From Chiua virens (taxonomy: Eukaryota; Basidiomycota; Agaricomycetes; Boletales; Boletaceae), in the NCBI GenBank assembly GCA_019787685.1, contig JAHNUO010000001.1, positions 434,001 to 498,000 of the forward strand: a DNA stretch of 64,000 nucleotides, read 5' to 3'. The notes beneath the pieces are model-generated. The model saw nothing but the letters and a program-made list of their open reading frames with translations, was not told the origin of the DNA and did no database searches. A program made the translations under genes and the position numbers. Of the stretch, positions 17,558-50,800 are shown piece by piece (positions within the stretch are counted from its first letter, which is position 1; each line of letters opens with the position of its first letter).

Positions 17558-20500
17558 ATGAAACGGTTTACAGTTCGCCTCCCGTTCTTTCGTTCCAAGG
17601 ATCCTGCAGAAACTACCATGCGGATGGATGGCATTAGAGAAAAGTTTGGACACTTCCGAGTCCTTCTCATTGGCCGGGCCAACGCTGGGAAGACTACAAT
17701 ACTCAAGCAAATTTGTAACTCGACAGATGATCCTGTGATCTACGACGGAAATGGGAATGAGGTATGCTTGAATGAGATGTCTGTGTCAATGATAGTGCCG
17801 GCGCATTGATGGTCTGCGATCAGGTTGATCCGGCACAGATCCAAGAATCCAGGGATGTGAGTTCCATGGTTGCTGTGATATCAGGGCTATGTAACATTCA
17901 GCTAATGCTGCGTCTCAAGCGTGGAATGCATAATATCGAGCACGAATTGGTCTTTCGAAGCAATCCAAACTTTATTTTTCATGACTCACAGGGCTTCGAG
18001 GCTGGCAGTATAGAGGAATTCGAACAGATGAAGAAGTTTGTTTTAGACCATGCAAAGACAACATACCTCAAGAAGAGGATCCATGTCATATGGTAATCAG
18101 ATATAGCAGTATTTGTATCACACTGACATTGACATATTGCTGAATATGTAGGTACTGTATTTCAATGGACCAGTACCACCGGGCTGTCTTGGCTGCCGAA
18201 GAAAAGTTTTTTAATGAATGTGATACTAGGAGTGGTATTTTAAGCTATCCTCAGACATGATTCTTTTTCTCATGGTTGTTCATTTGCAGTGCCAGTAGTG
18301 CTTGTGTTCACAAAATGTGATTCACTCCTGGTGCAAGGCCTTGCAACCTTGACACCTGAGGAGAAAACACTACCCCAAGGGGAAAGGCTTGCAATTGGAC
18401 AGCATAATGCTGAAAGAATGCTGCAGAACAATCCTACATGGAAGATGGTACAAAGGATGAGGTATCCACCAAAAGCATATGTGGAATTGAAGGGTATGTA
18501 TTTCTTAGGTTGTTGTCAAACTGATTCTAAATGTACAAAGACCTACACAAGTCAAATGAGGGGTGTAAACTTCTCTTGCAAAGAACTGTGTTAGCCTTAA
18601 AGGAAGAAGCATTGCAGATGCTACTTGTGACTACACAACACACAAATATAATGCTCTGCATTGAGTATGCATTGAGAAGGTAATTGATATAGAGTTTATG
18701 TATGAATCTTTTATTATTTTATTAAATATCCTATAGGGCTCTTATACCTTTCATTTGCTATACACATGAGCAAAGACAACCCCTGACAGATGCCAAACAG
18801 CAGGAGTTGGTGGGAGCAATTGCATCATGGTTTCCATATTTTGAGGTATGCAACTTTTTATAGTGTAAATGATATCCATGATACAAGGAAATCTAATCTA
18901 TGTTGACTCATCCATAGGGAGTAAGTGCTTTGATTGTGCATTGGTTTCTAGAAGAATGCTAATCTATGCCCCATTGTCCTTGCCTCTATTCTCTTATTTA
19001 TAGCAAGTGAGTGGTTTAATTGTAAATAGCTTCTAGAAGAATGCTGATCTACACATGCATATGTCCTTAAAAATACTATTTTTCCTGTTCTCTCATTCAT
19101 AGAAAGTAAGTAGATACTTGTGATAGCTTCTGGAAGGATGGTGACCTTTTTTTTGCTTCTACCCTTTTTATAGCAAGTAAGAGCTCTGATTATGAATGGG
19201 CTCTTAAAAATCTACAAATTTATACACTTTGTTTTGCCATTTATAGCAGGTAAGTGTCCTCATTGTAAACAGGTGTCTAAAGGGATGCTAATATATGCCC
19301 CTCTTCCTTGCTCTTACCCTTTTATTCATAGTGTGTAAGTTCCCTAATTATAAATGGGTATTCAGAAGGGCTGATCCATGATGCCCCATCTTTATCCTCT
19401 TATTCATAGTTTGTGAGTACTCTATTGTGAATGGGCCATATAATGTAAAAATGCTAATTCATGCCCTTTTGTCATTGTTACTACCCTCACATTCATAGTT
19501 TGTAAGTGCTCTGAGTAATAGGCTTATAGAAGGATACTAATCCATCTTTCCTTATTTATAGCATGTAAGTGTTCTGATTGTGAACAGGATCTTACAAGAA
19601 TGCTAATCCATTTCCCTCATTTTAAATATACATAGTGTGTAAGCACACTAATTGTGAATTGGTATTCAGAAGGATGCTAATTCATGCCCTTCCATCCTTT
19701 CCCCTATTCTTTCATTTATAGTGTGTAAGTACTTTTATTATAAATAGGAATTCAGTGAGCTGAGCTATGGCTCTCTGTCCTTGTCCTGTCCTCCCATTCA
19801 TAGGGAGTAAGTGCTCTTATTGTCAATGAGATTCTAGAAAGCACTAATCTTCCTGTTCATGCATCTATCCTTTCATTGATAGGGAGTAAGTGCTTTGATT
19901 GTGAATAGAATATTAATTCATGCACCTTTGTCTATGCCCCAATCATATATTCATAGCATGTAAGTGCTGTAACTGTAAACTTGAATGGGATTCAGAAAGA
20001 TGCTAATCTATGCCCCTCTGTTCTTGCCCCTGTCCTCTCATCCATAGTTTGTAAGTATTCTATTTTAAATGAGCATCCAGAATGCTAATCTGTGCCATTC
20101 TATTCTTACCCTTTCTTCTCATTCATAGAGTGTAGGTGTTCTAATTGTGAATGAGCACTGAAAAGAATGCTGATTCATGTCCCTTTGCCCTTGTCTGTTT
20201 TTTATTTATAGTATGTAAGTGCTCTGATTCAAACTTTGAATGGGCATCTAGAACCATGCTAATTCATGCTACACTCTTGCCTTTGCATTTATTCTTTTTT
20301 TTATAGCAAGTAAGAGTTTTGATTATGAATAGGGTTAGTACTAAAGGATACTGATTCATTCTTGTCCCTTTTCATTGTAGCATGTAAGTACTCTGACTCA
20401 GACTACAGAGACATTTAGAGAAATGTTGATCCATACTCCTGTCCTCTGGACTTTTTGCTTTGCTTGCATTCTGTTATTTGCAGTGTGTAAGTGCTCTGAT

Positions 20501-21486
20501 TATGAACAGTATTTAGAAGAATGTTGATGCAGGCTCTCTGCTCTTTCCCCTTTCTTTTATTAATAGGATGTGAGTGTCTCAATTGTATATAAATGAGCAT
20601 CTAGGAGAATGCTGATCCATCTCTTTTTGTTCTTGTTCATTTTTTCTTGTTTATAGTATGTAAGTGCTTTAATTCAAGCTGTGAATAAATGCTCAAAGAT
20701 GCTAACATATGCCCCTCTCTGTTTATGCTCTTATGTTCTTATTCATAGCAAGTGAGTGCCCTCACTGTGAATAGGCTTCTAGAAGAATGCTAACATATGT
20801 ATACTATAATTCATAACTTTTATATCCATTATAGATTGTATGTGTTATAACCTCAGATTTTATGATTATTTTGACATTTTAAAAAAGGATGTAAGCTTTT
20901 CTATTTGAAGTTTTCAGGATTTTATCTTTATTTCTCTCAATTAATCAGCAGGTATGAGTAAAATTTTCATTTAGCTTTGTTTTGACTTCTGTTTTACAGG
21001 AGGTTTGCAATACTCTAAATATACTTATAATTCTAGTAACCATATTAATCTTATAGATACTACAGTCTTCAAGTGTATGTGCATTTATTTTAGTCTTCTC
21101 ATTCTGTTCTTTTGATTAATTTGTATAAGCCCTCTATTTCCTCAAATGCATTATCATATTTAGCAACATCCACATTCAGTGTGAGTACATGGATTTGATG
21201 GTGATCTCTACCTAACATCTTATTCCATTATTTAGTCTCTGGAAGATGCCACATGGAGCAAAGCACTCCACCTAGGCATTGGTCAGTTTTTAGTGAGAAT
21301 TAGTGATTGTATTCATTATCATTTACAGGCATTGCCATTATCCTTGAACATTCTTTCTTTCTACATCAGAAAGGCCTTAAGGATCCAATCACAATAGCAA
21401 CAAAGCTTTATGAATCAACTGAAACAATCTATAAAGTCAAAAAAGCCAACTTTGAGCTTATTACCTCAACTCAACTTGAAAGATGA
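17558..21486 (+). CDS. G-domain (AIG1/Era-like P-loop) GTPase, intron-rich
   Basis: Exons before the array: 17558-17761, 17824-17856, 17920-18092, 18152-18234, 18290-18493, 18595-18679 and 18737-18845; all join in frame. G1 is GRANAGKTTILK, G3 is DSQGFEAG and G4 is VFTKCDSLL. The blocks HNIEHELVFRSNPNFIFH and LLVTTQHTNIMLCIEYALR match unnamed GTPases common in Agaricomycetes, as I recall them. After ASWFPYFE at 18845 comes the microexon array (described separately). The gene resumes with 21057-21074, probably a short exon near 21164, then 21236-21291 and 21329-21486 (SLEDATWSKALHLGI, then GIAIILEHSFFLHQKG), ending at TGA 21484-21486. Exon assignment between 21057 and 21236 is uncertain. The gene is clearly more AT-rich than its neighbours. 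Function beyond GTP binding is unknown. Confidence 0.75.
18846..21056 (+). repeat. tandem array of 28 intron-like units separated by 3-nt exons
   Basis: Directly after exon 18737-18845 come 28 consecutive intron-shaped units. Between neighbours the sequence is always AG, three bases, GT. The 3-nt exons start at 18918, 19004, 19103, 19174, 19247, 19332, 19410, 19499, 19562, 19636, 19722, 19804, 19883, 19957, 20048, 20129, 20212, 20307, 20381, 20484, 20567, 20657, 20749, 20835, 20888, 20949 and 21000. Unit lengths run from 48 to 100 nt. Typical units share GTAAGTGCTCTGATTGTGAA, a branch-like TGCTAAT or TGCTGAT, a pyrimidine tract and TTCATAG. The last four are shorter and less alike but keep the pattern; the final donor is the weak GTTTGC. 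Entry is in phase 0, so each trinucleotide would be one codon: CAA and TGT four times each, GGA, TTT and CAT three each, CAG, TAT and GAT two each, and AAA, AGT, ATT and GAG once. None is a stop. Confidence 0.8.
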
Positions 21487-22105: not shown

Positions 22106-24256
22106 CTAGTCCTCGTCATCATCCTCATCCTGCACATCTCCAATCATCTCCCCCTCCGTATAATAACTCGGAAAACTTGCCACCAGACTCTCGATGTACC
22201 AGTAGCACGTTCTCGGGTGCCTTTTATCCTCGCCATCCGGCACGATCTGCACCCATGTTCCGCACAGTCCCATTCCAACTACCAGCTGTTCCGCCGCCTC
22301 TGCGCCGTCCACCAAGATCGTCACGTCGTCTCGGTACGGATTCCACGGATCCTGGACGTCGTCATCGATAAAGCCATCTGGCATCGCCTCGGGAGAAATA
22401 GCACCCCTTGAACCAGGCACGATCACTGGCCTTGGAAAATCTGCCGTCTCTTCAGCCATACTCCCCACCCACGGACTCAACACCACCTTGAAAAACTGGT
22501 TTGCAAGTACCTCTTCCACAACCGACGTACAAACCCTATCCTCGTTTGCATGACATCCAAGCGGGATCACCTCCCGAATCCGCCGGGTCGAGAATTCAAC
22601 GATACCCGTCGTCATCGTCAGCGGAAACATGCTCGGCCCGAGAAGCGGCATCAAAAATGGTACAGCGACGTCCGTCCACGACGCCGTGGTGTACTCTTCT
22701 GCAGAGATAGCCGCCATCCAGGGATCGCCAGCCACAGGTACCTTCGTCACTGGAGTTTGGCTATCCGTGTTGAGATTATCCTCCATGACCTGCCTTGCAG
22801 TGACCGAATCAAGGACAACATCCGACGGCACGACCTCGATATCGTGTTCCTTGAGTTCCGTTTCAAACGTGTCGCTGGTATCGCTGGCGGGAGGCGTCTT
22901 GCTGGTATCATCGACAACTGGAGGCGACACAGTCGCTGAAATCTGGACGCTCAGGCTACCTTGGACACCCCAACATTCCTTGCAGCCGAGGTCGAATTGT
23001 CCAGGAAGGATTTGCCCGTGTTTGGCAGTCAGTGGCAACTCTTTCCGGGCAACGTCAGCGATGGTGAGTGCGCGTTCGAGGTTCTCGAGATGCTCCTTCG
23101 AATCCGAGAATACGTTGTTTCGCAGCATGAAGCGTAGAAAAAAGTGTAAGAAGGTGGGTGCGATGAACAAGTTTTTCTCCGTCCTGTCCACCGGTCAGGC
23201 AAGATCAAATACATGAGAAAGAAGCTGACCATATCAGGCCTTTGTCGCGCATATACGATGAGAGGAACACCTTGACCGAGTTTTCCATGTCGTCCACAAA
23301 AGCACGTAGGCGTTGCCCCTCTACCATCGACCCATCTGGACTCGGTTCGAGCTGTTTACCGGGAAGGGCACTTGGTTCAAGGTAATCCTGGATGATCGCA
23401 ATCTTAGTTTGTGTCGCCTTTGGGACGTCATCTTCCTCTTCGGATGCATTGTCCCCATTGTTGGGACCATCCACCTGCCCCCTTTGTTTTTTGACCTTTT
23501 TGTAAATCGGAATGCTAGAGATGAGACCGATATAGAGACGGAACTAGGCGGATGTTCATCGATAGCTGATCAGATCACACTGAAACGTACGTACCTGATC
23601 CCACAAGTACCTGACGCCTTGTGCGATCTCGGGCCACGTCCGCCCAACTCTAAAATCGTCCGCTGCAAGACAGACGCGATCCTCAAAGTCCATGCGGCTG
23701 TCAACCCGTCAGCCTCACCACACTCCACGAGTGAACGACCGCACCTGTGAAACGACGTCTCATTCATCGTCCGCGCGTCCTCGCCCTCCTCCCACTCCTC
23801 CCACCACGGGATCAACTTGCCCTCCGCGTCGAAGGCATTCCCCGCATTCCGTCGCCTCCGCTTCGCCTTGCGTTTCTTCGCCGACTCTTCCTCATTGAGC
23901 ACCTTGACGGTCGGTATCCCCGCCCACGCATCGACTTCAATCGTCTCCCCTGACGGCGTCGTCTCCCACCGATACCCCACAGGCACAAACGCACTCAACG
24001 GCACGATCTCCGCGCCATCCGGGGGTGCAGGGAACGGCGGGAACCTGTGCACCTGTTCAGTCGTCCTCATCCACATCGATGAAGGATAGACTCCGATTTC
24101 TCGTGTGCTGACGTAATCACGTCCCTTGTCTGCGGCCCAGCTGCGCCCTTCCGTTGACATAAACACCCTGACCATGGCCAACACGCGCGGATGACCTCTC
24201 AACTCGTTCTCTCCAACAAAGACCCCCGCAGGTCCGACTTTGTCCTCGCCGGTCAT
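22106..24256 (-). CDS. conserved basidiomycete protein, weakly Arb1-like
   Basis: Four exons: 24256-23745, 23697-23595, 23543-23230 and 23183-22106, all joining in frame. The N-terminal part has GENELRGHPRVLAMVRVF and VYPSSMWMR. A basic run KKRKAKRRRRNAG precedes IPWWEEWEEGEDART. Then follow MDFEDRVCLAADDFRVGR, GVRYLWDQFRLYIGLIS, an acidic linker and FLSSYMRDKGLIW. The last exon begins TEKNLFIAPTFLHFFLRF and LERALTIADVARKELP, then GQFDLGCKECWG. The C-terminus has RDDVTILVDGAEAAEQLVVG and CYWYIESLVASFPSYY and ends in an acidic tail. I recall the same order in unnamed proteins of other basidiomycetes. The FLHFF/ADVARKEL/GQFDLGC block loosely resembles Arb1 of the Argonaute siRNA chaperone complex, but this is not secure. 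The 5' end overlaps DUF6593. Confidence 0.65.
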
Positions 24257-39513: not shown

Positions 39514-41213
39514 CTATCTTTCGCTGGTCTGTTTTACTACTATTCTTTCCTTACTGTTTGTAAACAGTAGGAGGTAGTCGACCCATACTGTTATGATTTC
39601 AATGGAATCACCCTCATGTTGTATATAGACACAAGGATCAGTATATAGACCTTTGAAATTGATCTCATCAAGCTTGGTATCATGTTCTTCATTCCATTCC
39701 CAGCCGGATTGTAAACTCTTTACCATTCACGCGCGTCTGTACCACAACAGTTCCTTGTCCGCGTGCAATGATAGATTTATCGAAGTCCTCTGACAATTTT
39801 CTGAGGTATCGTCTGATATGTCGCGAATGCCTCAATTTGCGCGCACATATGCGTTGTTGCACCGGAATCGATAATCCACGAGTAAGCAGAAAAATCGGCC
39901 CCGTCGGCCTTTGACATTTCACTCTCGTCAGATATATTTACTTATACGGCGAAGCACTTTTAGAATTCCTCATCGCTACTCGATTCCTCCTCCGAGTCTG
40001 CAACATTGGCACGCACTTTTTCCTTCCCCTTTCCTTTGGTCGAGTTCGACACGAGATTCTTCTTTCCCTTGTCATCTCGATCCCCTTTAACACGTCCCTT
40101 GCCCCTATTCTTGGGGTTCTTCCAGCACTTCTCGGCTTCGTGCCCAAGCTTGTCGCAGATATCACACTTGGGTACATTTCTCCCTTTGTAGCGGCATTGC
40201 GCAGTGGCATGGTTCGTGCGGCTACAGATGGCGCACGGTTTCCGAGTCTTTCTGGATGAGAACGGCTCGGACACAGCATAGGCAGTATCACCCGTTCCGT
40301 TTTGCCGTTTGCGACGCTGATACTCCCCCAACAGAGTCATTTTGAGCTGGTTGACAGTCATCTTCTTCGTGCTGTCCTGTGCGGCTAGAACAGAGATAAA
40401 GAGGTCCCAAGAGCGTGGGGCAGACTCGAGGAGGATGTTTTTGAAGTCGGCGTCAGATACGAATTGGTCATTCTGAAAAAGAGCCTGGCGAACGCGAGTG
40501 AGTTCGGTAACGTGCTCCGTGATGTCCGTGTCATCAGTAGCACGCATATGCCAGAGCATGCCAACAGAGTACTGGTCGAGATGGACATGCGACGGCTCAT
40601 GGATGGTGCAGAGCGCTTCCCACATCTGCGCTGCAGAGCTGCAGTTGACAACATGAAGTACCTGCTCATTTGTAAGAGTGACGATGATCTGCACGCGTGC
40701 TGCTAGATCACGATCAGTCCAAAATTGGACGATAGCGGGGTCAGTCGTAGGATCGGAGGGCTGAGGAGTATCACCAGCCACGACGTCCCAAACCCCTTTG
40801 TGCTGTAGAATAACCATCATGCGCATTTTCCACGCAATCCAATTTCCGTCGTCGAGTTTCTCACGTTTGGTGAAGGGGGTGACGGGCGTAGGGACATAGA
40901 CTGGGATGGAGGGAGCAGCGGCCGACGAGGGCGCGGCAGTAGAAGTAGTCGACGGAAATGATGGAGGAGCGATGGTTGGTAAATTCATGGTGGATGGCTT
41001 TTTTTTGTCTGTTCCGGGTCAGAGCACAGGGCTCATAACCTTTTGCAGCAGGAGTACGCGAGGTGGTGACTGACTCGGATCAGACGAGGTGAGCCCTTGT
41101 GAGGCGGGACGACGACTATGAATTAAGATCCCCTGATACAGGTCGACATTTTATATATACTACTGCTATTGTCTCCGGACGACTCAGATGTGTAATCTGT
41201 AGTCTTTGTTTCG
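39514..41213 (-). mobile_element. Copia (Ty1) retrotransposon remnant
   Basis: The gag frame is intact at 40988-39960 (342 codons): a Copia-type UBN2 gag with KREKLDDGNWIAWKMRMMVI near the start and a CCHC knuckle CDICDKLGHEAEKC, ending in a Lys-rich then acidic tail. Just beyond it, in broken frames, are the protease block SAYSWIIDSGATTHMCA and then, with most of integrase and reverse transcriptase deleted, a piece of reverse transcriptase with YTDPCVYIQHEGDSIEIITV and WVDY in place of WVDD. Upstream of gag, GGTTATGAGCC-type sequence near 41035 looks like a primer-binding site, followed by a possible LTR piece with TATATAAAA to about 41213. No matching LTR was found on the other side. The element is dead. 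Confidence 0.8.
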
Positions 41214-42785: not shown

Positions 42786-44218
42786 ATGTTGAGCCCACTG
42801 CCTTCTAGTCATTTTCTCAGTCAGCCTCGCCAAGACTTTGCCTCCGATGGTTTTGTCGACACAACTACTCTTGCCGCACACGATTTCGATGTTGATACAC
42901 GAACTGGTTTCATGCCCCCAGATCCCCCCATTACTCGTATGCCTGTCGAATGGGAACCATGGGAGGCGATTCTGGACCGAGCTATGTCTACGAATATGCA
43001 ACTTGCGGTGAAACCGAATACAACTGAAGACGAGATGGCGGTTTCTGCGTCGTGGCGAGAAAGCGTCCGCGACAAAGTGAGCGGATTTCCCTAGCCTCAG
43101 TCATTCCCTTTTGTTTATTTTGGCAGTTACCCATGCTGTCGACGGAGGGCCTGATAGCTTCCGAGCTGTTGCTGCGACGAGCTCACCATGTGCTCACCTT
43201 CATCGTGCACATATATATCCACACACTCCCACTTAACGCTGAGATTCGCATCCCACGTAGCATCTCCATCCCTCTCCTGGAAGTTGCGGCGTATCTCCAG
43301 CTCCCACCTGTCGCAACATACTCTGATACCGTGCTCTATAATTGGAGTTTAAAATCTACCGAGGAGACGAGTCCACCCGCTCTCGATAATATTCGCAGTC
43401 AAGATCTCTTCACAGGTACAAACGACGAGCAAGAGTTTTACCTTGCTTCAGGACGTATTGAGATCAGGGGTGTCGAAGCCCTCAAATTGATGGGTGCCAT
43501 AATGGACGAAATGTTCGTTGGAGATGAGATCGCTATACGGCGGGTTACGGAATACCTTCACCAACTTGCCCTCGTCGTCGACGATCTGACGAAGATTTTG
43601 CTGCACATTAGAAGAGGCTGCGATCCCGAGTTCTTTTATCATAGCATTCGACCTTGGTTCCGCGGCGAAGATTCCGACCCAATGAACAGAAAATGGATTT
43701 TCGAGGGGCTTGACGAACATCCGGAGATAGAACCACCAACGGACTTATCTGGACCGAGTGCTGGTCAGAGCGCACTTATCCACGCACTCGATATTTTTCT
43801 CGGTTTGGACAACTGCAGCACAGGTGAAGGCGCATATCACGATGACAGCCTGACATTACTTCGTCGTATGCAAATTTACATGCCGAGGCATCACCGCAAT
43901 TTCTTGCGCCATCTTACTGCTAACCCGAGGCCTGTACGGGACTTAGTGGTTAGTGGGGATTCAAAGCTCGTCGAGGCATACAACGGGGCCGTGTGTTCCG
44001 TTAAACAGTTTAGAGATGCGCATATCCGGATAGTCGCGATATATATTGTCGGACCAGCGAGTCGGGAGAGGGCGGCGGTACGGGAGGCAGAAGAGGCTAG
44101 AGTGGAGAGGACGCCCGCACTGAAGGGAACGGGGGGAACACACTTGGTGCAGTTTTTGAGGGGGGTGAGGGACAAGACTGCCGAGGCTGTGGTTGAGGCA
44201 GAGCCCAAGATAGCGTAA
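42786..44218 (+). CDS. indoleamine 2,3-dioxygenase
   Basis: A haem dioxygenase that opens the indole ring of tryptophan to N-formylkynurenine, first step of the kynurenine route to NAD. Exons 42786-43076 and 43127-44218, in frame; 461 codons, the normal fungal length. Family blocks in order: HVLTFIVHIYIHTLP, SIPLLEVAAYLQLPPVATYS with DTVLYNW, EFFYHSIRPWFRG, GPSAGQSALIHALDIFLGLD and MPRHHRNFLRHL, where the His in HRNFL is the expected proximal haem ligand, followed by RPVRDLV. It appears complete. It stands alone, with no other kynurenine-pathway gene in the window. Confidence 0.93.
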
Positions 44219-46334: not shown

Positions 46335-47855
46335 TGGGGAAGTTACTTACACCCGAGACACAGCCGGAAAAGTCTAGCTAGCAAAGTCTATACTTATTGT
46401 TCAACACATTGCACCTGGGAATTTGGGTTAACTCGTCAAACATATCCTTATGAGATCTAAAAAAAGACAGCGGACTTTGATTATGCAACATATTATGTTA
46501 AATAAAGGCAGAATAGTTAGCTTGACAATAGCTAAACTTTGCCTAGCAATATGTATCCATGAGATATTTCCAGTTGTTGCTGAAGACGTTATTAAATATG
46601 AATTTGTTAAATATTTGAAAAATGTGATACAATGTCTTTGTTCTACATATTCTATATCAGACTCCGACTAGCAACCAGCAACTTAGATTGGCCCTGATAT
46701 GCCTACATAGGGAATACATGTTCGTAAAGTTTGACTACATAACAAATTTATATACAGATTTTGGATATGCTTCGAGATATGGTCAAGTGGCCCACTCACG
46801 GGACCCCTTGGTGGGTCCCTAGGGTCCCTAATAGGGGAATGAGCAGAGATAGTAATTGCCTGAGTACCAGTTGGATATCAGCACAGCGTCAATCATGATA
46901 AGACTCATAGCAAGCGCAAATCCCAATGCGATCAAAACGATAGCGAACAAATAGGCACTTATTTCCCCTAGTATTGTTAACAACCATGAACGACTTGGCG
47001 ACTATGCAGATGAGCACGACGACTGGACTCAGATCGATAACACACATACATTTGTTATTACACCATTGTAGAACCACGAGCGACTTTGTGACTATGCAGG
47101 TCATGATGAGCACGGCGACTGACTACCAAAAATGATACCACACATACATTTGTCATTGGGTAGTGCGTACTTTGGAGCGGACAGTAATGAAGCGCTTCTG
47201 ACAGAGGTGGGAAGTGGTCAATAAGAAAACACAACGCAGTAACACAACATACCACCAGTGTTTTTGTCAGGGAATAACAGCAACAACAGCGATATGTCCG
47301 GGTTTTTAAAGGGACGTAGTGCCTAAGATGGGATAATAAGGGGTTGTCAGGGGTACCATCTTATTGTGTAGGGCCTCTGGAAACCAATACAAACGTCTCC
47401 CGAAGAATATGTACTAAAAGGGAGCCGCCTTATTGTGCCCCTTGCATCCCGTGAGTACTTCTGGAGACCGTGACTAATACTTTGTTTCCTAAGAAGCTAA
47501 CACCGCGCGAGAGCTCCAAGAACAAGGAATACAAGGAATTGAAGTACAAGGAATATGAAGTACAACGACAAAGTAAGGATTAGTGTACGTGTACGTAGAG
47601 AGCATACATATAGCAGAGATAAGACCGGGGTAAACCATCTTCGTACCGCACCGCTGATGGTGCTCTGTTTCTGCTCGACTTGCGGGCCCTAGCGGGAGGG
47701 ACATTTCCAAGAATGAAAAACGGATGCATGAAAGAAACGATCGAACTGACCAAGTTAAGGTGGGTTATTTCACGGCTTTCTCGCAACCATAGCCATACTA
47801 AAATGGCGCAGATTCCTACTTTGGTCCAACAAATGTCCGACAGTATCGCTGGAGC
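46335..47855. other. 1.5-kb partly AT-rich spacer
   Basis: 46440-46680 is AT-rich with a short plus frame lacking motifs. Around 46795-46850 is a GC-rich patch with short inverted GGGACCC/GGGTCCC pieces. Around 46880-47260 two stretches resemble each other (both contain ATGACCTGCATAG-like and CACATACATTTGT on opposite readings), suggesting the 5' non-coding end of the transposon that follows. No gene is supported. Confidence 0.35.
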
Positions 47856-50800
47856 CTGCGCCAGACAACAATGTAAGTCTTTAAAGTTAAATTGGATTCG
47901 TATCGTGACGTTACCTTTCACAGAGAGGGGAAGTGACTCGAGAGATGTTGTCGAATGACTTGCTGGAGCCTGCACCGGATAAGAGTGTAAGTATTCAAAG
48001 TTAAATCGGATTCGCATCATGACATTACCTTTCACAGAGAGGGGAAGTGGCTCGAGAGATGTTGTCGAATGACTTGCTGGAGCCTGCACCGGATAAGAGT
48101 GTAAGTATTCAAAGTTAAATCGGATTCGAATCGTGACGTTACCTTGCACAGATAGGGGAAGCGGCTCGAGGGATGCTGTCGAATGACTCGCTGGAGCCTG
48201 CACCAGATAGGAGCGTAAGTCTTCAAGCTAAATCGAATTCCGATCAATGTGACATCACCTTTCACAGATAGAGGAAGTGGTTCAAGGGATCTTCAAAATG
48301 ACTCTTGAAGACGATACTTCGTGGAACCGGTATGCGGGACAGTCGCTAGCACCTCCAAGGCCTTCTCCACAGTCAGAGACCCAATTAGAAGTGTCCCTCG
48401 AAGAAACCGACGAGGTTTTTGCGCAACTCCTCACGGTTGACCATGAGATGCACCGCCGTGCACAATATATACACAGCAAGGTGGAGGGATTGAGCGCGGC
48501 GGGTACACAAAGCCAGATCTTAGAAGCCACGGAGGAACAACTGAAGTGGTTCCAAGAGAACCTCGATGTCGTTACTCACTTAGCCAGAGGGGATGAGAGC
48601 GACGAACTACTGTGTGCAGAGTTAGAAGGGAATATGAAAGAGCTCCTGGCAGCTGTGAGCAGTATCGCAAAAGCTCTTGTAGCCAGGACGCCTGAGGATA
48701 TGTCACCCAAAGAAAGTGCTTCCGAAGTCATAGATACTGGTAAGTTTCTGCGATGATGTCATTTAAGGAACTAACATGTTCCACAGAACCGAAATTTCAC
48801 CTTAGCTCCCGTCATGCCAATCCACTCGTCTTGCTGACCATGCTGATCGCGGTTATCTTGAACATTTTCGGACACCTCACTTGTCCTTGGAGTAACACTT
48901 CCTTGGGACTCCTAAACCTTCTGCTGAAGACCGCCCTCCACTCTCCTACCCAGCCTCATGCCGCGTTAAACACGCTAGAACCTGTCACAGGAGACTACGT
49001 TCCACACGATATTCGATCAGTGTGCAAGAAATTCAACTTGGAACCCTCCACTTAGACATATGCTACATGTGTCAAGTGTCGCTCCACATATGCGCTGATC
49101 ACGAAGAAGAAGACGAGTACGTATCCTGAACGGTGCAACTTCGTGAAGTACCGTGGCGGTAAACTGTGCGGACAGCTCCTAGTCAAGACGACGAAGTTGG
49201 GCGGCGTCAAAGTCTCTGCGCCGCTAAGACCATTTGTCGTACAAGATTACAACGATTTTCTGGCTGGCCTACTGAGCCGCCCGGGAATAGAGGCCACGAT
49301 GGAGCGTGGAACTAGGCTAAACAACAAGCATCAGCTGTGGGACATAAAGGACGGGACAGGGATTACCGAAATCACGGGTCCTGATGGTAAACCATTCATG
49401 GATGGGCTGCAAAGGAGTGACCTCAGGTTAGCCTGGAGTCTCTCAGTTGACTGGTTTAATCCTCATGGAAATAAGACTGCGGGTAGAAAGAAATCAGTCG
49501 GGTTCATTGCACTGGCTTTGCTCAACCTACCCCCCAGTCTTTGTTACAAAGCGAAAAATCTTTACATTGTCAGCGTCATCCTTGGTCCCAAAGAACCCTT
49601 GCTAGAGGATATGAACCACTTCCTTCGCCCCCTCATCAACTTCTTTTTGCCCGCATGGCAAAGAGGGACATGGTTCACATGGACTGTTGAGCACCCAGAG
49701 GGGCGATTATCACGATCTGTCATCGCGCTGGCTATCAACGACTTACCTGCTGCTTGGAAGGTTGGCGGCTTCGCAGGGGCCAACGCTGAACACCCTCTGT
49801 AACCTTTGCTGGTTGAAGAAATCGGGAAAAGGCAACTTTGAATGCGAGACGTGGAAACACCGGACTTGTGAAGAATATCGGGAAGCTGCAATTAGATGGC
49901 GAGATGCCGACTCGAAAAAAGAACCTGATAAAATCTTCAAGACGACCAGGGTATGATGGTCCGAACTTCTTAGGCTGCCATACTGGGATCCTACGCATTT
50001 CCTCGTGGTCAATGGCATGCATAATCTCTTCCTCGGCTTGGTCCAATATCACTTCAGAGACCTCATTGTCATCGACAAGCTTGCGAACCAAGAGCTCCGC
50101 AGGTCCCATCAGACACCAAAGAGACCGATTGATAAACACGAACTGCAACAGGCTAGACGGCTTGTTGGATCGGGAGCATCATCCACGGCACTCGGTCGCA
50201 TTCGCTTACCAGTCTTGTTAAAGCTAGCGGAGGAACAAGGAAGGTTATCTGAATTGCCAACTTCGAAGGCAAAACCAACGAAAAAAGATCTGGTCGAAGT
50301 GCTACTGGTGAGCATCACATTCATAGAGGCGTTTGAACAATCCTGACATCTTGGCTCAAGTTGGGGCCGGCTTCACCACCAGACATTGTCCCAATGATGG
50401 TCGATAAATCAGAGGTCGGGCCAATAACTGATGTGCTCCTCGGAGACGAATTCATTGATGACTGTATCCCAAGCGGAAATGTAAGGAAGCCCGCATCCAA
50501 CGAGCCACTCACGAACCGCGAGATCGATGAAATTCAAACTCACCTCCACACAATCATGCAACCAATATGGCATCGTGGTGCCCTGAAAAACCTCGGTGAT
50601 CCTGAACATGGAAAGCTCAAGGTAGAGCAATGGAGAACCTCGATTGAGTTTGACTTGCCCATAATCCTTCTAAAACTATGGGCTAATGGTCCATATCCCG
50701 ACGGCGAGAATGAGAAATGTGCGTGAAGGGAAAAGTTGGTGCACAGTACAATGCTGCTGGCAATGGCAATCGGATGGGCCACATCCTACGCCACCTCAGA

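Follow-up and report, generated by a model that had tools for sequence, protein, structure and literature searches.

In fungal non-self recognition, the WD repeats of HET-D and HET-E are homogenised except at hypervariable codons. In schistosome micro-exon genes and arthropod Dscam, variation arises via many small in-frame or alternative exons, and at recursive splice sites each splicing event leaves a donor immediately downstream of the acceptor. Micro-exons of 3-30 nucleotides (nt), as listed in one account, include the 3-base-pair (bp) exon of Drosophila homothorax, the 3-bp exons of Drosophila troponin T and rodent NCAM, and a 1-bp exon of Arabidopsis APC-11 (PMC7392893), and a fungal microexon has also been described (PMC11121469). 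Introner-like elements, as characterized in fungi, are many near-identical spliceosomal introns that are dispersed (PMC4457414). Here we describe a GTPase gene of Chiua virens with a long array of apparent one-codon exons. The gene lies in a stretch of 64,000 nt (hereafter the window), which corresponds to C1:434001-498000 in a 136-contig assembly totalling 48,285,464 bases, and gene coordinates below are window positions.

We consider it quite probable that this gene belongs to a family of GTPases with a hypervariable segment that is built residue by residue and spliced one codon at a time, the introns being homogenised while the codons are diversified by conversion and unit turnover together with selection, and that the segment possibly serves as a recognition surface. 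The array architecture, the coding behaviour of the triplets, the constraint on splice signals, the coexistence of homogenised introns with diverse codons, and the differences between probable alleles were all read from genomic sequence. The window gene was divided into the following features, all on the forward strand.

17558..17761, +, exon 1 with the ATG start and the P-loop GRANAGKT (sequence and translation; boundaries set beside paralogue L029)
17824..17856, +, exon 2, 33 nt (sequence and L029 model)
17920..18092, +, exon 3 with the G3 motif DSQG (sequence and L029 model)
18152..18234, +, exon 4 (sequence and L029 model)
18290..18493, +, exon 5 with the G4 motif TKCD (sequence)
18541..18679, +, exon 6 (sequence)
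18737..18845, +, exon 7, ending in ...ASWFPYFE in phase 0 and adjoining the array (sequence)
18846..21056, +, array of 28 putative introns and 27 one-codon exons (sequence and paralogous arrays)
18918..20837, +, variable part of the array: 24 one-codon exons, from GGA at 18918 to ATT at 20835, between drifted repeat introns (compared with the family)
20888..20890, +, one-codon exon GAT (Asp), at the position conserved in the family (x-D-x end in 34 of 39 arrays)
20949..20951, +, one-codon exon CAG (Gln) (sequence and comparison of array ends)
21000..21002, +, one-codon exon GAG (Glu), common to much of the family (GAG here in 29 of 39 arrays)
21057..21074, +, 18-nt exon ILQSSS (sequence; similar 18-nt stretch in paralogues)
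21236..21281, +, downstream exon SLEDATWSKALHLGI (sequence and paralogues; 21075-21235 is one intron, or two and a small exon)
21329..21486, +, last exon read, ending earlier than in the paralogues (sequence; tblastn covers residues 1-50 of 68 only)

On re-reading the sequence, the layout described in an earlier note on this DNA proved exact: in 18846-21056 there are 27 triplets, all flanked by AG and GT, and 28 GT-AG introns of variable length (48-100 nt), with the first donor at 18846 and the final acceptor ending at 21056. The first 14 triplets start at 18918, 19004, 19103, 19174, 19247, 19332, 19410, 19499, 19562, 19636, 19722, 19804, 19883 and 19957, and the remaining 13 at 20048, 20129, 20212, 20307, 20381, 20484, 20567, 20657, 20749, 20835, 20888, 20949 and 21000. 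There are 35 matches to AG-NNN-GT in 18801-21300, and the eight that are not units comprise six that overlap a unit by 4 nt, one within an intron and one upstream of the array. The upstream exons, with boundaries read beside the L029 model, total 945 nt, and the array is thus entered in phase 0, as the note had proposed; the 1104 nt of upstream exons in L029 likewise give phase 0. The triplets read G Q K Q Q C F F H C C G G H F S Y Q H C D Y Q I D Q E, and the claim that none of them is a stop also held.

The motifs GRANAGKT, DSQG and TKCD, which we take to be G1, G3 and G4 of a GTPase presumably of the TRAFAC class, are also present in the L029 translation, as expected of a P-loop GTPase. The best Pfam match of the family protein was MMR_HSR1 at 22.2 bits (cut-off 21.9), and a weak GTPase match, small_GTP, scored 31.8 bits, under its cut-off of 42.5. 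No NACHT domain was among the Pfam matches; the only related one was nSTAND_NTPase5 at 14.6 bits, which is below its cut-off and lies over the P-loop.

The family is widespread in the genome. A DNA search with two arrays found at least 43 array loci (40 including that of the window, then three more), a lower bound with 40 of 67 and 40 of 73 candidates scored. Protein searches gave 68 matches to the C-terminal exon and 68 to exon 6, the latter as the second part of another query. By nearest-match pairing, 67 of the 68 C-terminal exons found a partner, 66 of them at array-sized gaps of 1.27-17 kilobases (kb), the largest two of which (9.7 and 17 kb) could contain insertions or reflect wrong pairings. 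One pair, at C3:608242 (L034), is separated by 526 bases with a single triplet by pattern, and its array seems to have been deleted. In a comparison by eye, all 43 loci found by DNA search lay inside paired-exon intervals of the GTPase family. At least six of the 68 C-terminal matches are probably second haplotype copies (on C46, on C82, three on C26, and one of C41/C42).

We read 39 arrays, namely that of the window and 38 others, with 8-80 units each and main unit lengths of 85, 86 and 88 nt. The earlier note had suggested a search for the same array in related genes; the AG-NNN-GT layout recurs in these 38 further arrays of the family in the same genome, and it is therefore not due to chance. 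The counts omit L031 and L033 (duplicates of L026 and L032), L001 (the window's own entry), L034, and L004, L006 and L008-L010, which overlap other loci. The last three triplets were set aside in every array but L007, L028 and L037, whose chains stop short, and the tally of codon choice drops them everywhere. Diversity figures (pi) use introns of modal length only. The arrays of L037 and L028 are broken by unit-free stretches of about 5 kb and 1.7 kb, respectively, which are probably insertions. An anchor between array genes, C6:107500-108700 (L051), recurs on C6 at intervals of ~18-20 kb and is present on C27 as well, which places the array genes there in a segmentally duplicated cluster.

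The pattern used for the main array reading had the 3 nt built in, and the spacing was therefore rechecked without a fixed value. The gap from a [CT][AG]TAG end to the next GTAAGT within 12 nt was 3 nt in 1070 of 1072 junctions across the family, and the constant spacing reported earlier for the window was found in 27 of 27 cases. The triplets at these junctions behave as translated codons, as indicated by the depletion of stops and the excess of TGG. Among 1151 internal triplets of the 39 arrays, TAA and TAG are absent (54.5 and 3.5 expected), TGA occurs three times (51.9 expected), and TGG occurs 28 times where 3.3 are expected; these expectations, derived from position-wise base frequencies, assume independent units and are descriptive only, the homogenised units being related by descent. 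TGG is both the sole common G-ending codon and the sole Trp codon, suggesting that selection acts on the residue. An x-Asp-x end was found in 34 of the 39 arrays. Of the other five, L007 is truncated by the boundary of its locus, the arrays of L028 and L037 are interrupted, the chain of L036 stops one unit short, and L047 is the fifth.

Codon choice in the arrays is narrow, with Gly as GGA in 229 of 238 cases, Leu as CTT in 137 of 150, Tyr as TAT in 155 of 156 and Glu as GAA in 89 of 91, and the palette is mostly one splice-compatible codon per amino acid. Two codons are used for Arg (CGA 80, AGA 35) and chiefly for Ala (GCT 26, GCA 21, GCC 1). Ordinary exons of L029 differ from the arrays in their mixed codon usage. 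Rare triplets include NAG (3 of 1151), presumably because a tandem acceptor would form, NTA (8 of 1151), presumably because TAG would form at the junction, and NNC (0.3%).

The introns carry conserved splice signals, with the donor GTAAGT in 1050 and the acceptor ATAG in 1064 of 1096 units. Eight drifted arrays were selected from the 39 for a count of AG dinucleotides in the final 34 nt of the introns, which gave nine versus 96.5 in shuffles of the same stretch; the window array alone has four versus 9.0. In six of these eight arrays a branch-like motif is common, including 20 of 25 introns in the window. In all ten of the arrays that were profiled (of 39), the splice ends vary less than the intron interior and the triplet varies most, diversity being 0-0.06 at the donor, 0-0.05 at the acceptor, up to ~0.25 in the interior and 0.50-0.63 in the triplet. 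Splice ends are thus kept even in drifted introns.

Many arrays, which we take to be young, combine almost invariant introns with diverse codons. In L018, all 26 modal-length introns are identical over 83 nt, yet seven codon types precede them. The respective diversities of introns and triplets are 0 vs 0.597 in L018, 0.0008 vs 0.517 in L029, and 0.0008 vs 0.634 in L045. For the window array, intron diversity is 0.35, a figure from only three introns of modal length, and this array is an old, drifted copy like some others. The earlier statement that the units have drifted widely is therefore apt for the window and does not extend to many paralogues, whose introns are near-identical. Linkage between triplets and intron variants is weak (213 sites, mean z by bin from -0.26 to 0.73, with the maximum in the first 14 nt). 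Neighbouring codons differ about as in shuffled arrays, and codon order is near-shuffled; repeated 3-mers exceed shuffles at p<0.05 in five of 37 arrays (L003, L017, L026, L029, L040). Among 666 array pairs, only L023-L044 has a common run of more than five codons. Each array draws on a restricted palette, and in 28 of 37 the number of codon types is lower than in random draws (p<0.05).

Comparison of probable alleles gives a view of how such arrays change. Contig C26 is collinear with C8, in inverted orientation, around 1.43-1.645 megabases, and gene pairs L024/L043, L023/L044 and L022/L002 follow in order. Anchor C8:1480000 matches C26:155563 at 99% (next best 77%); a further anchor, L048, is a repeated sequence with no C26 match among the best 40 of 374 candidates, and it carries no weight for or against allelism of C8 and C26. 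Contigs C41 and C42 carry a common anchor found nowhere else (98%, two of two candidates), ~11.7-11.8 kb from the gene on both. The pairs L026/L031 and L032/L033 were found by near-identity, the anchor checks covering C8/C26 and C41/C42. Strictly, large segmental duplication in place of allelism could also have produced these pairs.

Three of six probable allele pairs carry unrelated codon strings: L024/L043 (flanks 99.31% identical, codon alignment z 0.6, intron consensus 100% identical), L005/L042 on C41/C42 (99.61%, z 0.0, 100%) and L002/L022 (97.05%, z 0.5, 98.8%). Codon strings are alike in L023/L044 (z 9.2), and by the pattern used 48 of 48 triplets are the same in L026/L031, where 31 differences in 5001 bases include none in triplets, and 20 of 20 in L032/L033. 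Since two near-identical pairs repeat their triplets, the arrays are not assembly noise. In the same-codon pairs the introns are heterogeneous (pi 0.045-0.18), and each different-codon pair has at least one homogeneous array (0.004-0.009), the partners L022 (0.036) and L005 (0.050) not being homogeneous. This suggests that codon rewriting and intron homogenisation go together, for a set of six pairs, which is few. Some codon order is retained more widely: among 48 pairs whose flanks are 94% identical or more, codon alignment gave z>3 in two and p<0.05 in six.

Two further comparisons bear on the mode of exchange. L023 and L044 differ at 58 of 2171 intron sites, 8 of 1198 flank sites and 1 of 83 triplet sites; in addition, one codon is swapped and one unit is missing. 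L044 has, in eight units, an intron haplotype absent from L023, and seven of the eight codons are the same, the eighth being TGA in L023 and CGA in L044; such units with mostly unchanged codons fit conversion tracts inside introns. L018 and L045 show the reverse, with differences at 6 of 1200 flank sites, 2 of 2355 intron sites and 19 of 90 nt of triplets, and gaps worth three units. As a separate observation, at the 31 positions where L026 (C9) and L031 (C46) differ, the C46 copy shows C>T or G>A in 21 cases, the reverse in seven and other changes in three, a directional bias that is possibly of the kind left by repeat-induced point mutation.

From these data we infer the actual splicing, translation, conversion mechanism, selection and function as follows. 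The family would have a hypervariable segment of up to ~80 residues between a G-domain part and a C-terminal part, each residue being encoded by its own 3-nt phase 0 exon. The introns would be removed one after another via intron definition; nearly every intron has its own full donor hexamer GTAAGT, so that the triplet can be almost any splice-neutral codon. Because every exon is 3 nt long and in phase 0, the frame would survive when units are gained, lost or skipped. The introns would double as identical recombination tracts, homogenised within an array, and short-tract conversion together with unit turnover, with selection favouring diversity, would most likely keep the codons varied. Given this diversity, we would guess that the segment is a fast-evolving recognition surface, possibly for self/non-self recognition. 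We hold more tentatively, at somewhat less than an even chance, that the recognition segment is at times wholly rewritten, that the array introns are made identical in the same process, and that alleles of one locus with unrelated peptide strings result, a diversity system resolved to single residues and a way of building a repertoire that depends on the spliceosome.

Several points weigh against this proposal. Splicing of a long series of 3-nt exons would be sterically demanding, and we know of no case where it has been shown. Of the 1072 junctions, the two exceptions (gaps of 5 and 2 nt) both belong to L012, and their use would disrupt the reading frame; five of 1220 intervals between chained triplets exceed 115 nt (in L012, in L017, twice in L025 and in L047), leaving one or two junctions off-pattern. 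The three TGA triplets within arrays (L013, L016, L023) are also unfavourable, as is the shared descent of units that limits the codon and AG expectations. The branch-like motif is rare in L027 (4 of 22 introns) and L032 (1 of 21). Block duplication is weak, below what unequal crossing-over leads one to expect, and introns of zero divergence with seven codon types in L018 are more than unit duplication alone can produce. The last exon of the window gene (21329-21486) ends ~23 residues short of its L029 equivalent, and with this truncated C-terminus the window copy may be decaying. Beside these, the donor in the off-pattern intervals of L017 and L025 resembles GCAAGT, and from unit 6 on L012 has 255 nt without a regular triplet, either a broken unit pair or an intermediate of unit turnover.

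Two rival explanations accept the triplets as codons, and we regard each as unlikely. One is that only some of the one-codon exons enter the mRNA and that skipping, whether stochastic or regulated, yields an in-frame combinatorial peptide repertoire from one gene. Any donor-acceptor pairing across units would indeed keep the frame with 3-nt phase 0 exons, and unit donors and acceptors are so nearly alike that only proximity could set a strict order; however, the good splice signals and the scarcity of AG near the 3' ends of individual introns fit constitutive stepwise removal, and stop avoidance indicates inclusion of codons without telling all from some. The other is that codon diversity comes from a process aimed at the triplets, by hypermutation or templated rewriting, in place of conversion and selection. 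The weak linkage to nearby intron variants, the near-shuffled neighbours, and the C41/C42 pair, with its almost identical flanks, identical intron consensus and no common codon order, are what such a process would leave. Random mutation would not be expected to yield a discrete palette with mostly one synonym per amino acid and fewer types than random in most arrays, and 68 pattern-matched triplets are unchanged in the two near-identical pairs, although the introns there have drifted and these arrays may be inactive.

The remaining alternatives, namely a single long intron, introner insertion, a minisatellite and an assembly artefact, were considered and rejected. The earlier note had weighed removal of all introns, with one residue per exon, against alternative or recursive stations within a single 2.2-kb intron. 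That the array is one long intron, or a series of recursive splice stations whose triplets never enter the mRNA, now seems very improbable. The junctions do resemble recursive sites with a 3-nt offset, but the stop depletion, the TGG excess and the conserved Asp triplet would be unexplained if the triplets were untranslated; together with the conserved splice signals they favour the one-residue-per-exon option. Near-identical introns at many places resemble introner-like elements, and we give scarcely any credence to repeated insertion of such elements between the codons of an existing coding stretch, which would have to hit every codon boundary exactly and, as judged from the scored candidates, only genes of one family. 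As to a non-coding minisatellite or an assembly artefact, tandem repeats of 85-88 nt look minisatellite-like, and we nonetheless find this extremely unlikely, given that the triplets are exact in near-identical second copies and the 3-nt gap is almost invariable. Four consensus units tested have lengths that are not multiples of 3 and contain stops in all three frames. The earlier dismissal of a plain minisatellite stands, with constrained splice ends and coding-like triplets.

If the proposal of one-codon splicing holds, a spliceosome builds a stretch of protein codon by codon across tens of consecutive exons, introns gain a role as a substrate for recombination and homogenisation that protects the reading frame, and a fungus has a fast-evolving, possibly recognition-related repertoire. 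The architecture would let codons vary wildly while their surroundings stay constant. It makes testable what the maximum spliceable series of minimal exons is, and how diversity persists amid homogenisation of the flanks.

Elsewhere in the window, a 114-nt tandem repeat of 3.8 copies at 47848-48280 has units of an apparent exon of ~63 nt and an intron of ~51 nt (GTAAGT...CAG), an apparent tandem exon-plus-intron duplication of ordinary size. Pfam matches include the Arb1 subunit of a small interfering RNA chaperone (22106-23191, - strand), a Copia-type gag domain (39960-40988, - strand), indoleamine 2,3-dioxygenase (43052-44218, + strand) and a Transposase_21 domain (49143-49802, + strand).

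By size (up to about 30 nt, flanked by GT-AG introns), the apparent 3-nt exons at 1070 of 1072 junctions would count as micro-exons, and known micro-exons of one codon are likewise spliced and translated in frame; those described in the account cited are single, whereas here 8-80 follow one another between near-identical introns (PMC7392893). Among the titles and abstract openings listed in a thin literature search, none describes a series of one-codon exons. Introner-like elements are scattered in unrelated genes, and here the introns stand in tandem in one gene family (PMC4457414); dispersal in unrelated genes was not seen, 43 of 43 loci by eye falling in the GTPase family with 40 of 67 and 40 of 73 candidates scored. 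Recursive sites of zero length (AG-GT) were absent among the 1072 junctions, three codon-like bases remaining between AG and GT. The drift without position-specific constraint that marks a minisatellite was likewise not observed in the arrays. The exons of schistosome micro-exon genes and Dscam are longer, and random single-codon strings between identical introns are not known from those genes. The family also falls outside the fungal NOD-like receptors and HET proteins, which join a NACHT or similar signal transduction ATPase (STAND) domain to translated C-terminal repeats, its best Pfam match being MMR_HSR1. The arrays do resemble HET-D and HET-E in that their units are near-identical save for very diverse codons; there the whole repeat is translated, whereas here all but the variable codon appears to be intron.

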